Assembly (NCBI RefSeq): GCF_903903185.1
Contig: NZ_CAIUXT010000030.1
Location: 1-32,917 of the forward strand
Direction of reading: 5' to 3'
Origin: an uncultured Rhodoblastus sp.
Lineage (GTDB): Bacteria > Pseudomonadota > Alphaproteobacteria > Rhizobiales > Beijerinckiaceae
DNA length: 32,917 nucleotides
The position numbers were made by a program, and so were the translations under genes. The notes below the pieces were generated by a model. That model was not told where the DNA came from. It saw nothing but the letters and a program-made list of their open reading frames with translations, and made no database searches. Positions 16,670 through 21,469 of this stretch are shown here, piece after piece; positions within the stretch are counted from its first letter, which is position 1, and each line of letters begins with the position of its first letter.

Positions 16670-17530
16670 TCAGGCGCGCTCGAAGGCGCGGCGCACAGCG
16701 CGGGCGACCATGACGCCGGCGATGCTGGTGCGGTAGGCGGCCGTGCCGCGCCCGTCGGTCGCCGGCGCGGCGATGGCTTCCGCCGCCGCCGCCGCCCGGG
16801 CGAGACTCGCCGCATCGAGGCGCGAGCCGATCAGGATTTGCGCGGCCTCCTCGGCAAACAGCGCGGTGTCGCCGACATTGGTCAGGGCCAGCGCGCAGGT
16901 CGCGATGACGCCGTCTTTTTTGGTCAGGACGACAGCTGCGGCGGCGGTGGCGTAGTCGCCGACCTTGCGCTTCATCTTTTCATAGGCGAAGCCATGACCG
17001 TCAGGCAGGGCCGGGATCGTGACCGAGACCAGAAATTCGCCGGGTTCCAGCGCGGTGTAATAAGCGCCCTGATAGAACTCCCGCGACGGGATGACGCGGC
17101 GGCCCTTCTCGCCGACAATCGTGTAGCGGGCGTCGAGCGTCATCATCACCGCCGGCATGTCATTGCCCGGATCGCCATTGGCGACATTGCCGCCCAGCGT
17201 CCCGCAATAGCGAATCTGCGGATCGGCGATAACCAGCGACGTCTCGCGCAAAATCGGGACCTGCGCCGCCAGAAGTTCGGAGGCGATCAACTCGGCCTGG
17301 GTGGTCATCGCGCCGATGATGATATCGCCGCCGTTCTGGCAGACGCCCTTGAGTTCGGGAATGCCGGCGAGATCGACGAGATGTTCGGGCGTCGCCATCC
17401 GCAGCTTCATCATCGGGATGAGACTATGGCCGCCCGCCAGCGGCCGGGCCTCTTCGCCAAGGCTCGTCAACAGCGCGGCGGCCTCGTCGATCGACTTCGG
17501 TCTGTGATAGGTGAATGCGCCCGGGATCAT
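16670..17530 (-). CDS. coxM: CO dehydrogenase medium (FAD) subunit
   Basis: A 286-aa flavoprotein that takes electrons from CoxS and passes them to quinone. FAD-binding motifs are AGGHSLIPM (residues 32-40) and [15 protein letters not shown] (110-124), the two pyrophosphate loops of the molybdenum hydroxylase FAD subunit family; [14 protein letters not shown] near 200 is also conserved. The ATG at 17530 is preceded by GGAGGAA four bases upstream. Coding begins about 120 bases after the coxC stop, in a stretch holding candidate regulator sites, so coxMSL may have its own promoter here. Confidence 0.96.
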
Positions 17531-17542
17531 CGATTCCTCCGA

Positions 17543-17551
17543 CGTTTCGTG
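17543..17551 (+). promoter_or_regulatory. CGTTTCGTG element in the coxM leader
   Basis: The same 9-mer occurs at 19099-19107. It lies 12-20 bases ahead of the coxM start, on the strand opposite to coxM, just upstream of the ribosome site. It belongs to the family of C(A/G)(A/T)TTCGTG elements found in both cox control regions. Confidence 0.35.
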
Positions 17552-17617
17552 TTTTCGGAGGGTCGCCGCCATCGCGGTGCAGCAACAATGGCAATTGGCT
17601 CAAGCGCGTCGTTCGGG

Positions 17618-17647
17618 CGCCAAATGAGGAGCGGCTTGCACGAAATG
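17618..17647 (-). promoter_or_regulatory. Candidate LytTR-type operator upstream of coxM
   Basis: CATTTCGTG (17647-17639) and CATTTGGCG (17626-17618) form a direct repeat of two 9-mers separated by 12 bases, a 21-base pitch, which is the standard spacing of LytTR recognition sites. Each contains TTnnnG, the element I recall for the CO-sensing LytTR regulator RcoM. The pair starts four bases after the coxC stop codon and lies about 88 to 117 bases upstream of the coxM start. It is a natural target for CoxC, inferred, not shown. Confidence 0.45.
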
Positions 17648-17650
17648 CGG

Positions 17651-18916
17651 CTATTGCGGCGCGGTTTTCACGAATGGCGGATCGCGTGCGAGCCGGACCG
17701 GCATTTTTTCGCCTTCAATTCTTTGACGCAGCGCCGCAATACGTCCGCGCGCAATGGGAATGCTGCATTGCACCTTCGCGCCCGCAATATCGACAAAGCC
17801 GTTTTCGCCTTGCCGGCGCACGCCGGAGACAAAGGCGAGGGCGACGATAAAGCTGCGATGCACCCGCATGAAGCGCGGCGAGGCCAGCAGAGTCTCGACG
17901 CCGCCGATCGACAATTTGCAGAAATATTCCTGCGCGCCGTCGGAAATGAAGGTGTAATGCGCATTGGCGCGCACCGAGCGGATATCGTCGAACAGAATAT
18001 GGCGCGGCTTGCCGTCCTTCTCGACGATGATGCTTTCATAATTGGTCACCGGCGGAGGGCTGGCCGGGCCGAGGCGCGAGACGGCGCCCGAATCGCTTTC
18101 CGGCGATGCGTTTGCGGCGGCAATTGCGGGCGCCGCGCTCACGGGCGCGGAAACGGCCAGCGCCGGGGCGGGAACAGCCGTGGGCGACGGGGCGGCGCGC
18201 TCGGCCGGCGCCGGCTTTTTGTCGTCCGGCAGCAGCGAAAGCAGAAAACTCCCCGACACCGAGAAGCCGATCAGGGCGACGATAATGGCCAAGGTATCGC
18301 GCGACAAAGCCGGCGGGCTGGCGCCGGCGGGCGCCTCGCACAAGGTAAAGGAGGTCCCCGTCATGGCGGTGTAATGCATGCCCGAAACAGCCAGGCCCAG
18401 CACGCAGGCCGCGAGCCAGACCGGCACGCCTCCCGCCGGACGGTTCAACAGCCAGAGCGCGAAGCCGCTGGTCAGGACGGCGATGCCGAAGGCCAGCGCC
18501 ATTTGAAAATAGTCGTGAACCATCAGCGCATTGGCGTGAACGGCGACCATGCCGACGTAATGCATGATGAAGATGCCGCTGCCCATGGCGAGCGCGCCGA
18601 GCGCCAGGCGCAGACGCGGCGATCCCCCCATGTGCAGGGCGCAAACCGCCAGGCCGACGACAATGACGCAGATCAGGAAGGAGATCAGGGTCGGCAGGAC
18701 GAGGAAATCGACGCCCGCCGGCAATCGGGCGGCGAGCATGCCGATGAAATGCATCGACCAGATGCCGACCGCGAAAGCCGTCGCGGAGCCGACCAGCCGC
18801 AACCTCCGCGACAACAGCGAGGACGCGTTCAGGTTTCCCGCGAGCTGCAAGCCAACGTAACTGCCCTGTATGGCCATGGCGACCGACAGCGCCACCAGCC
18901 AGGGTTCATGTCCCAT
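17651..18916 (-). CDS. coxC: CoxC, MHYT-LytTR membrane-bound regulator
   Basis: The 421-aa protein has a membrane sensor and a DNA-binding output. Residues 5-230 form seven hydrophobic helices with three MHYT-type motifs, MHFIGM (55-60), MHYVGM (118-123) and MHYTAM (180-185). MHYT units are proposed to bind copper and sense gases such as CO, O2 or NO. A Pro/Ala linker (235-290) leads to a LytTR domain (about 293-400) that has the characteristic RFMRVHRSFIV block. CoxC-type proteins head cox operons and are presumed CO-responsive activators. The chosen ATG at 18916 starts directly at the first MHYT helix, with GGGGAG-like bases upstream; the frame stays open further. Candidate target repeats lie on both sides of this gene. 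Confidence 0.9.
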   Translation of the reverse strand: MGHEPWLVALSVAMAIQGSYVGLQLAGNLNASSLLSRRLRLVGSATAFAVGIWSMHFIGMLAARLPAGVDFLVLPTLISFLICVIVVGLAVCALHMGGSPRLRLALGALAMGSGIFIMHYVGMVAVHANALMVHDYFQMALAFGIAVLTSGFALWLLNRPAGGVPVWLAACVLGLAVSGMHYTAMTGTSFTLCEAPAGASPPALSRDTLAIIVALIGFSVSGSFLLSLLPDDKKPAPAERAAPSPTAVPAPALAVSAPVSAAPAIAAANASPESDSGAVSRLGPASPPPVTNYESIIVEKDGKPRHILFDDIRSVRANAHYTFISDGAQEYFCKLSIGGVETLLASPRFMRVHRSFIVALAFVSGVRRQGENGFVDIAGAKVQCSIPIARGRIAALRQRIEGEKMPVRLARDPPFVKTAPQ

Positions 18917-19327
18917 CCCTGCCCGCTCTCCCCAGAGTCGCGATTCTTCGACCGCGTTTGTTGAGAGCAATATCGGGGATTTCGGCGCAAATGCAAAGAG
19001 CCTCGCAGGGGGCGCCGAGACAGCTTCCGTCTGGCCATCGCGTCGGCATTTCGTGAAGACCGGCGCGACCGGCGCCGCAATTCGTGCGCTCTGGCTGTCG
19101 TTTCGTGCGCGGGGCGCCCGCATCGAACAAAAATCATTGTCGCCCGCCGGCCGAAATTGGACGCTCCTTGTCACAATAATTTGAGAGAGAATCTGCGCTC
19201 GGGCAAATCCTGGCCAACTCCGACGCCTCTTCGCGCAGCGCGCCAGGTGAATTCAAGATCGCGCTTCGGCTATGGGCGCAACCGAATTGCGTCATCCGCC
19301 GCCGAGGAATTTGCAGGAGCGTTTCGC
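18917..19327. promoter_or_regulatory. Divergent promoter region between coxC and the molybdopterin-binding gene
   Basis: This 411-base stretch separates the cox operon from the divergent molybdopterin-binding protein and moaA genes. It contains three TTCGTG elements between 19050 and 19107 (listed separately). I could not find a convincing -35/-10 pair for either direction. No gene was identified in it. Confidence 0.5.
19047..19107 (+). promoter_or_regulatory. Triplet of C(A/G)(A/T)TTCGTG repeats
   Basis: CATTTCGTG (19047-19055), CAATTCGTG (19078-19086) and CGTTTCGTG (19099-19107) lie on the same strand, 31 and 21 bases apart, which is three and two helix turns and therefore one face of the DNA. 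The first 9-mer is identical to one upstream of coxM and the third to that at 17543. A same-face triplet of TTnnnG elements fits a LytTR regulator such as CoxC or RcoM; binding is inferred. Confidence 0.45.
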
Positions 19328-20410
19328 ATGAAATTCGGCGCCGTTGCGATCGAGCATAGCCTGGGCGGCATCGTCGCCCACCGGCTCAAATTCGGTCCGC
19401 TGGTCCTCGACAAGGGCGAAATCGTCACCGCCGGCCATGTCGCGGCGCTGCGTGGTCTTGGTGTCGAAGAGATTGTCGTGGCGCGGATGGAGCCGGGCGA
19501 GGTCGGCGAGGACGCCGCCGCTCTCGCTGTCGCCGGGGCGCTGGCCGGCGACCATCTGGCGATTCGCGCGCCCATGACCGGCCGGGTCAATCTCCATGCG
19601 CAACGCGACGGAATCTTCCTGGCCGACCGGGGCCTTATCGACCGGCTCAACGACGTGGACGAGGCGATCACGCTGGCGACCGTCGCGCCGATGGCCGTTG
19701 TGCTTGAAGGCGAGATGGTGGCGACCGTCAAGATCATCCCCTTCGCCGTGGCGCAGTCGAGCCTCGCGGCGGCGCTCGCGGTCGCGCGCGAGGGACGGAT
19801 TTCGACGGCCCCTTACCAGCCGCAGCGAATCGGCGTCGTCTCGACGCTGCTGCCGGGGCTCAAATCCAGCGCCATCGACAAGACGTTGATGGTTCTGGCG
19901 GACCGCATCGCCGCGTCGGGCTCCGTCATCGCCGCCGAGGAGCGGGTGGCGCACGAGGCGCCGGCGCTGGCGCGGAACATTGCGCGCCTCTCAAGGTCTT
20001 GCGATCTGGTGATTGTCTTCGGCGCTTCCGCCATCACCGACCGCCGCGATGTCATTCCCGCCGCCATCGAGGCCTGCGGCGGGCATATCGTGCAATTCGG
20101 CATGCCGGTCGATCCGGGCAATCTGCTGCTGCTCGCCCGTCTCGGTGACGCGACGCCGGTGCTTGGCGCGCCCGGCTGCGCCAGATCCTGCAAGGAGAAC
20201 GGTTTCGACTGGGTGCTGCATCGCCTGCTGGCGCGCGTGCCGGTGACGAGCCGCGACATCCGGCGGATGGGCGCCGGCGGGCTCATCTCCGCGCCCGCGC
20301 GTCCGCACAAAAGCGAGGCGCGGGAGCGGCGGATTTCCGCTGGACGCCATCAAACCGGGCGCCCGCTCGACGCCGCCGCTGCGCCGGCGCCCAATGAAAT
20401 GGGGTTTTGA
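19328..20410 (+). CDS. Molybdopterin-binding protein (MoeA/MogA-like domain)
   Basis: A 360-aa protein whose C-terminal half holds the molybdopterin-binding (MoCF_biosynth) fold: RIGVVSTLLPGLKSSAIDKT near 162, VIVFGASAITDRRDVIP near 234, and FGMPVDPGNLLLLARLGDATPVLGAPGCARS near 260. The N-terminal part (KFGAVAIEHSLGGIVAHRL, LVLDKGEIVTAGHVAALRGLGVEEIVVARMEPGEVGEDAAAL) is typical of the same family, often found fused to a MobA-like nucleotidyltransferase; here that partner is separate, at the other end of the cox unit. A role in making or handing over the cofactor for CO dehydrogenase is likely. AGGAG stands eight bases before the ATG; moaA follows after three bases. Confidence 0.85.
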   Translation: MKFGAVAIEHSLGGIVAHRLKFGPLVLDKGEIVTAGHVAALRGLGVEEIVVARMEPGEVGEDAAALAVAGALAGDHLAIRAPMTGRVNLHAQRDGIFLADRGLIDRLNDVDEAITLATVAPMAVVLEGEMVATVKIIPFAVAQSSLAAALAVAREGRISTAPYQPQRIGVVSTLLPGLKSSAIDKTLMVLADRIAASGSVIAAEERVAHEAPALARNIARLSRSCDLVIVFGASAITDRRDVIPAAIEACGGHIVQFGMPVDPGNLLLLARLGDATPVLGAPGCARSCKENGFDWVLHRLLARVPVTSRDIRRMGAGGLISAPARPHKSEARERRISAGRHQTGRPLDAAAAPAPNEMGF

Positions 20411-20413
20411 GAC

Positions 20414-21469
20414 GTGACGATTGCGGTTCCCGACCCCCTCAAGCACAATTGCGCGCGCGACGAATCGCCCGTCGTCCCGACGCTGGTCGATCCTTTTGGA
20501 CGCGCCATCTCCTATCTGCGGGTGTCGGTCACCGACCGCTGCGATTTTCGCTGCGCCTATTGCATGTCGCCGGACATGACCTTCCTGCCGAAAAGCGAGG
20601 TGCTGACGCTTGGCGAGCTTGACCGGCTCTGCTCGGCCTTCGTCGATCTCGGGACCCGCAAATTGCGACTCACCGGCGGCGAGCCGCTGATGCGCCGCGA
20701 TGTGCTCAAATTGTTTCAACAATTGTCCCGTCATCTCGATTCCGGGCGGCTCGACGAATTGACGCTGACGACCAATGGCTCGCGTCTGGCCGAGTTCGCG
20801 CAAAAACTCGCCGATTGCGGCGTCCGGCGAATCAATGTCTCGCTCGACACGCTCGATTGCCGGAAATTCCGCGCCATCACCGGTCGCGGCGATCTGCAAC
20901 AGGTGCTGCGCGGCATTGACGCTGCGCAGCGCGCCGGGCTTTCCGTCAAGATCAACACGGTCGCCGTAAAAAATTTCAACGAAGACGAGATCGGGTCGAT
21001 GATCGTCTGGGCGCATGGGCGCGGTTTCGATTTGAGCCTCATCGAAATCATGCCGATGGGCGAAATCGAGCGCCGCGCCGATCAATACCTGCCGCTCGAC
21101 CTTGTCAGGCGCCGGCTGGCCGAAAAATTCACGCTTGTGGAAAGCGCTTATTGCACGAGCGGGCCGGCCCGCTATTTCCGTGTCGGCGAAACCGGCGGGC
21201 GACTGGGCTTCATCACGCCGCTGACCCATAATTTCTGCGAAAGCTGCAACCGCGTCCGCGTCACCTGCACGGGAACGCTTTACCTGTGCCTCGGACAATC
21301 GGACGCCGCCGATTTGCGCGCGCCCTTGCGCGACGACCCGACCGACGAAGGGCTGCGACAGGCGATTCGCGCGGCGATCGCGCGCAAGCCGAAGGGGCAT
21401 GATTTTGTCATCGACCGGTCCGGCGCGCCATCGCCGGTCGCCCGGCATATGAGCCACACCGGCGGCTGA
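20414..21469 (+). CDS. moaA: GTP 3',8-cyclase, first enzyme of molybdopterin synthesis
   Basis: A 351-aa radical SAM enzyme that converts GTP to 3',8-cyclo-GTP. The N-terminal cluster is CDFRCAYC (Cys43, Cys47, Cys50) and the C-terminal cluster uses Cys275, Cys278 and Cys292 ([19 protein letters not shown]); the SAM-binding [11 protein letters not shown] is at 87-97. The chain ends in the Gly-Gly tail (SHTGG) required for activity. The GTG start at 20414 is three bases after the previous stop and has no strong ribosome site, so coupling is likely. The pairing with the molybdopterin-binding protein means the locus supplies molybdopterin to its own CO dehydrogenase, though moaA is also needed cell-wide. 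Confidence 0.95.

Follow-up and report, generated by a model that had tools for sequence, protein, structure and literature searches.

In Afipia carboxidovorans OM5, CoxC has been reported to bind and repress the promoter PcoxB, with CO relieving both effects and the repression being shown in E. coli (NAR 2024, PMC11347149). That paper presents CoxC as the first MHYT protein demonstrated to regulate transcription as a sensor of CO, with an operator at PcoxB formed by three TTNNNGCN repeats that overlap a predicted -35 element (PMC11347149). In the text of that paper, the DNA target of CoxC is one promoter of one strain, the term PcoxM is not used, and coxM is named twice, both times within coxMSL (PMC11347149). 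The canonical LytTR sites quoted there are pairs of 9-base repeats that lie 10-13 bases apart (PMC11347149), and RcoM is described as an activator with a haem sensor domain (PMC11347149, PMC8148161). Judged by titles, no other work on a coxM operator of CoxC was found among the openly licensed literature.

In this work we analyzed a window of 32,917 nucleotides from an uncultured Rhodoblastus sp., in which an initial annotation, made from the letters alone, had proposed a CoxC operator ahead of coxM and had held CoxC binding sites to be not well described; the 2024 paper does describe them, at PcoxB (PMC11347149). The features of the coxC-coxM gap and its surroundings are as follows.

16670..17530, minus strand: coxM, CO dehydrogenase medium subunit (Pfam), the first gene past the putative operator.
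17559..17564, minus strand: -10-like GACCCT (xAxxxT), 18 bases after TTGTTG; spacers of 17 or 18 are preferred in relatives.
17583..17588, minus strand: -35-like TTGTTG, 35 bases after box 2; many relatives have TTG at 34-36.
17597..17604, minus strand: candidate degenerate box 3, CTTGAGCC, 19 bases after box 2, placed in the window only from the third copy that relatives have at 19-21.
17618..17626, minus strand: box 2, CATTTGGCG, 21 bases after box 1; 5.7 bits, weak, in register.
17639..17650, minus strand: box 1, CCGCATTTCGTG, with the core TTCGTG at 17644-17639, containing the first copy of the initial annotation; 24.2 bits with the repeat-1 matrix of coxC-coxM gaps.
17651..18919, minus strand: coxC, 422 aa, MHYT sensor and LytTR DNA-binding domain (Pfam), start picked by alignment with relatives.
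17669..17674, minus strand: additional TTCGTG, a possible fourth copy, inside the coxC 3' end and 30 bases before box 1.

Downstream of coxM, the genes coxS, coxL, coxD, coxE and coxF follow on the same strand (Pfam). The coxC stop occupies 17653-17651 and the coxM start lies at 17530, both on the minus strand, and Pfam places the LytTR domain at the C-terminus of CoxC, as had been proposed. The direct repeat also stands at the positions first given: CATTTCGTG (17647-17639) and CATTTGGCG (17626-17618) lie on the minus, coxM-sense, strand, 21 bases from start to start, with the first copy 4 bases past the coxC stop, and the LytTR-type spacing of two 9-base repeats 12 bases apart is conserved in relatives. 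As a bare 7-of-9 match at pitch 21 the pair is ordinary, since 305 of 32,887 window positions do equally well and a gap of this length should hold about one such pair by chance. We therefore reject any significance of the two copies taken by themselves, and it is this ordinariness that would favor a chance repeat, or one imposed by some constraint on the coxC 3' end or the coxM leader. We count the repeat as real because it is conserved in relatives, and not because of its own statistics. The third copy assigned to the coxM leader, CGTTTCGTG, is indeed present on the plus strand at 17543-17551; it is absent from the nearest relatives (L087-L089) and was rejected as a part of the operator, to which it probably does not belong on this comparison. 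By eye, a short hairpin (CCGA...TCGG, 17530-17565) may be possible in the coxM leader, close to the ribosome-binding site, and a longer one, CCGAAA...TTTCGG, is seen in L087.

The conservation analysis used as its region the coxC-coxM gap together with the last 60 bases of coxC. Loci were taken from named genomes (12 of 80 loci used, L002-L013, in which the match reaches beyond the sensor into the LytTR region), from plasmids (11 of 148 places fetched) and from genomes of the same family and order (55 loci, from searches at E <=1e-45 with at most 30 loci each; the matching genomes G423 and G339 gave no locus). Including the window this made 79 loci, 69 of them with coxM in reach and 66 distinct; ten were left out for lack of coxM in reach (L086, L107-L110, L132, L140, L141, L143 and L144) and three because the 100 bases ahead of coxM duplicate those of another locus. 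Over this length L105 repeats L003 (Methylovirgula sp.) and L111 repeats L006 (Beijerinckiaceae bacterium); as L105 and L111 come from genomes of the family to which the window belongs, that family is probably Beijerinckiaceae. The core TT[CG]GTG occurs in 65 of the 66 distinct regions (shuffles: mean 10.8, maximum 22), and two copies 19-22 bases apart are found in 33 of 66 (100 shuffles: mean 0.02, maximum 1). Between pitches of 15 and 35, 40 of the 46 histogram entries fall at 19-21. The matrix built from 40 strict pairs of these gaps describes a repeat unit of about GACGCAnTTCGTGCA, in line with coxM and with a pitch of 20-21. Scanned at pitches of 18-23, 31 of the 33 regions outside the training set scored above 8.1 bits, the highest value among 300 shuffled 400-base sequences for which pitches of 19-22 were allowed, and 23 reached at least 22 bits. 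Since the loci are related, we also counted by lineage, drawing at random one member from each of the 31 CoxC clusters at 60% identity: 26 lineages reach 22 bits and 29 lie above the shuffles. Matches in the gaps are oriented towards coxM in 133 cases (plus) and away from it in 15 (minus), and the coxC-coxM gap of OM5 itself carries boxes (36.9 bits). Only L094 and L103, the latter containing Ns, fail to beat the shuffles among the 66 regions. The additional TTCGTG before box 1 is also present in L087 and L089, at a spacing of 31 bases. Lack of conservation in orthologous loci, which the initial annotation had named as refuting, was thus not observed: repeat, pitch and orientation are kept, and 26 of the 31 lineages have at least 22 bits. 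The repeat unit does, however, exceed the 9 bases first assumed, and third copies are frequent.

Whether the boxes go with coxC or with coxM was read from a held-out set of 25 loci. Besides the window, 17 of them were obtained by searching 385 genomes of the class for coxM, and 8 came from plasmids. Where CoxC is encoded upstream of coxM, all 14 loci give 19.7 bits or more (L176 is the same DNA as L011, which leaves 13 new loci, and L187 matches L147 at 85% over 200 bases), and 10 of the 11 loci without CoxC upstream score 5.6 bits or less. Five of these ten are weak controls, because their CoxM is only 36-39% identical; in the other five it is 48-59% identical. In the exception, L174 (30.6 bits), CoxC is encoded on the same contig at a distance of about 11 kb. 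The genome G857 holds both situations, one coxM beside CoxC with boxes (L179, 19.7 bits) and another coxM without them (L189, -0.7). As the held-out scores split by the presence of CoxC, the boxes accompany coxC and not coxM alone. With 29 of 31 lineages conserving the boxes, one prevailing orientation in the gaps and no boxes at 10 of 11 held-out coxM loci lacking coxC upstream, a chance repeat or a constraint of the coxC 3' end or the coxM leader becomes a very remote explanation. Of the coxC loci without coxM in reach, L086, L132, L143 and L144 carry boxes within 60 bases after coxC, L108, L109, L110 and L140 have no box just after coxC, and L107 and L141 are cut by contig ends. On the Sinorhizobium meliloti and Rhizobium leguminosarum plasmids, CoxC-type boxes stand just past the stop of the coxC homologue (L086, 5206-5280; L143, 4206-4280; L144, 4191-4230), and no cox genes were found in the fetched stretches of these three loci. 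An EAL-domain reading frame lies downstream of the boxes, over the Pfam cut-off in L144 and just under it in L143; coxC homologue and EAL frame perhaps constitute a link from CO to cyclic-di-GMP.

The coxM-gap matrix, in whose training PcoxB had no part, also finds the PcoxB probe bound by CoxC in OM5 (19.5 bits; 300 shuffles <=8.1). The register that it assigns, from start to start, is TTCATGC-21-TTGGTGG-20-TTTGGGC-15-TTGATG, and TATCGT follows TTGATG with a spacer of 18, so that in this register the layout of PcoxB equals that of coxM. The published repeats, read from the primers as TTACCGCC, TTTGGGCA and TTGCGGCA and separated by spacers of 21 and 18 (PMC11347149), score -16.9, -2.6 and -4.9 bits with the same matrix. 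The published mutants left the cores TTCATG and TTGGTG intact; mutant 1 alters the conserved G 4 bases before TTGGTG, so that the score of this box falls from 9.8 to 5.6 bits, and in mutant 2 the third box, already weak (-2.6 bits), is lost as well. Against the matrix register stands the report that the last weak binding disappeared once the third published repeat, which lies outside this register, had been changed along with the other two (PMC11347149).

These observations bear on the identity of the regulator. Since the published CoxC site is the one at PcoxB (PMC11347149), one could propose that some other regulator binds the coxM repeats and travels with coxC, while CoxC acts only elsewhere. 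We consider this unlikely: (i) coxC is the only LytTR gene found by a whole-genome search of the window's assembly, which is 91% complete, (ii) the boxes are present in L174, where coxC and coxM are far apart, (iii) they follow coxC in L086, L143 and L144, and (iv) the matrix recognizes DNA that CoxC does bind in OM5. An MHYT-LytTR regulator is encoded with the cox genes, and the motif is common to the window and the CoxC-bound DNA of OM5. Given that the boxes are conserved in the gaps and that held-out loci with coxC score high, a CoxC operator at coxM is well supported on comparative grounds, and the operator reading of the initial annotation is supported by conservation, pitch, orientation and the association with coxC.

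The surroundings of the boxes are also conserved. Among the 56 regions with at least 22 bits, a weaker third copy (at least 4 bits) is found 19, 20 and 21 bases after box 2 in 8, 7 and 6 cases, respectively, and once at the other offsets from 12 to 30. A TTG stands 34-36 bases after box 2 in 36 of the 56 regions and is lacking there in the other 20, whereas the remaining offsets average about 0.95 each; further peaks appear only at 20 (7 cases, the place of the third copy) and at 28 (6 cases, excluded from that mean). Counted by lineage, TTG occurs at 34-36 in 13 of 26, other intervals of three offsets averaging 1.1 and never exceeding 5. In the 36 regions, xAxxxT follows TTGnnn with a spacer of 17 in 13 cases and 18 in 12, and in at most 3 cases at any other spacer from 12 to 23. 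The arrangement would fit a sigma-70 type promoter that has the boxes immediately in front of it. Since 35 bases separate box 2 from the conserved TTG, and about 15 a third box from it, no overlap between a repeat and the putative -35 element is predicted at coxM. As to the published TTNNNGCN repeat, two copies in the window fit it (TTCGTGCA and TTGGCGCC) and a third is degenerate.

A recurrence of the repeat in the other cox control region, already pointed out in the initial annotation, was found as TTCGTG at 19050, 19081 and 19102 of the plus strand, upstream of coxC. The features on this side are listed below.

19050..19055, plus strand: outer TTCGTG of the second operator, 31 bases before the next copy, a spacing similar to that at the coxM site (30).
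19076..19107, plus strand: second operator pair, CGCAATTCGTGC and CGTTTCGTG, pitch 21, directed away from coxC; 27.6 bits.
19137..19165, plus strand: promoter-like TTGTCG, placed 35 bases past the last copy, with GACGCT following 17 bases later.
19328..20410, plus strand: MoCF (molybdopterin-binding) gene (Pfam), downstream of the second operator.
20414..21469, plus strand: moaA-like gene after MoCF; the genome search found one further Mob_synth_C gene, which makes two.

Its layout being that of the coxM site, this second operator likely puts the divergent MoCF-moaA pair under the same CoxC control. Upstream of coxC, two or three box matches in the same orientation as in the window are found in L087, L088 and L089, and a MoCF gene divergent from coxC also occurs in L159-L161. 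In L159 and L161 (the genomes of L087 and L089) coxB stands behind the second operator, 59% and 57% identical to CoxB of OM5, and is followed by MoCF; coxB was not found in the window or in L160 (the genome of L088), where the MoCF gene comes first. At both operators of the window an additional TTCGTGAA lies 30-31 bases before the first box.

Elsewhere in the window's own genome, two patterns occurred at 10 and 11 places versus 2 and 10 for the reversed controls, the second being therefore no better than its control. Among the 20 pattern places scored, a set smaller than a full genome scan, the only pair reported above 23.4 bits is the coxM site; the second operator scores 27.6 bits. A TTCGTG pair of pitch 22 and 23.4 bits outside the cox cluster (L151, contig C61, 82584), which has no TTG, is a possible further CoxC target or a chance occurrence.

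Taken together, these results point towards the following model. CoxC, predicted to be a membrane-bound CO sensor with a LytTR domain, would bind the boxes just upstream of the promoter-like -35 element, with the TTG as the presumed working -35; coxMSL would be kept down without CO, and CO would release CoxC. We regard it as probable that the conserved in-line repeats are a CoxC operator that holds coxMSL down until CO is present. The repressor sign was adopted from OM5, whose CoxC keeps PcoxB repressed in E. coli until CO lifts the repression (PMC11347149). The sign is nonetheless uncertain, because the boxes stand ahead of the -35-like element, in a position linked to activators by PMC11347149 itself. 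A serious alternative, which we nevertheless consider less likely, is that the same operator works with the opposite sign, CoxC activating coxM in its native host in the presence of CO, as RcoM does (an activator according to PMC11347149 and PMC8148161), and that the repression in E. coli is a property of the test system. The boxes end just upstream of the -35-like TTG, so that the repeats sit where most LytTR activators bind (PMC11347149), and poor -10 hexamers such as GACCCT would suggest a promoter in need of help. RcoM-type loci share the layout as well: in L191 and L192 (Burkholderiales), TTnnnG pairs with a pitch of 20 were seen by eye within 170 bases before coxM, and the first member of the pair is followed 34 bases on by TTGAAT, a spacing shared with the CoxC sites. 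This comparison rests on two loci, however, and the CoxC experiments found show CO-relieved repression, at a promoter that has the same layout in the matrix register (PMC11347149). Repression by CoxC accordingly remains our preferred reading.

In both L191 and L192 an RcoM-like LytTR gene precedes coxM on the opposite strand; one of these genes shows a weak PAS match that falls short of the Pfam cut-off. No RcoM (PAS-LytTR) gene was found in the window's own genome, where coxC is the sole LytTR gene detected, and the RcoM-like protein of L192 had no match there (G000) at 1e-20, in a search run without a positive control on this incomplete assembly. Across 21 genomes of the class the RcoM-like protein likewise had no match, which shows little by itself.

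A conserved operator directly before the CO dehydrogenase genes would shift the main target of CoxC to coxM. The sharp motif and the promoter layout give the exact bases to mutate and call the published repeat register into question, and the coxM operator makes the choice between repressor and activator directly testable. In the clade of the window, molybdenum-cofactor genes are predicted to switch together with the enzyme that requires the cofactor. It is tempting to speculate further that coxM, and not coxB, is the main and ancestral target of CoxC, that the CO sensors CoxC and RcoM, unrelated in their sensor domains, share one set of promoter rules (TTnnnG repeats with a pitch of 20 bases, the final one some 15 bases ahead of the -35 element), that CoxC acts there as a CO-dependent activator, and that the PcoxB operator, whose mutants spared the cores of the two best boxes, was published out of register; we offer this wider proposal tentatively, as the less probable view.

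Within the described systems, the PcoxB operator of OM5 is similar in its MHYT-LytTR regulator of cox genes, in its TTnnnG direct repeats and in being matched by the coxM-gap matrix; it differs in preceding coxB instead of coxM, and its published repeats follow another register. The canonical LytTR sites share the direct repeats and the two-turn pitch with the coxM operator, whose unit is longer, however, and often present in three copies. The RcoM site of Burkholderia-type coxM promoters also belongs to a LytTR regulator of cox genes, and the TTCNNGCA triplet quoted for it in PMC11347149 fits box 1 (TTCGTGCA); whereas RcoM is an activator with a haem sensor, CoxC is membrane-bound and carries MHYT motifs.
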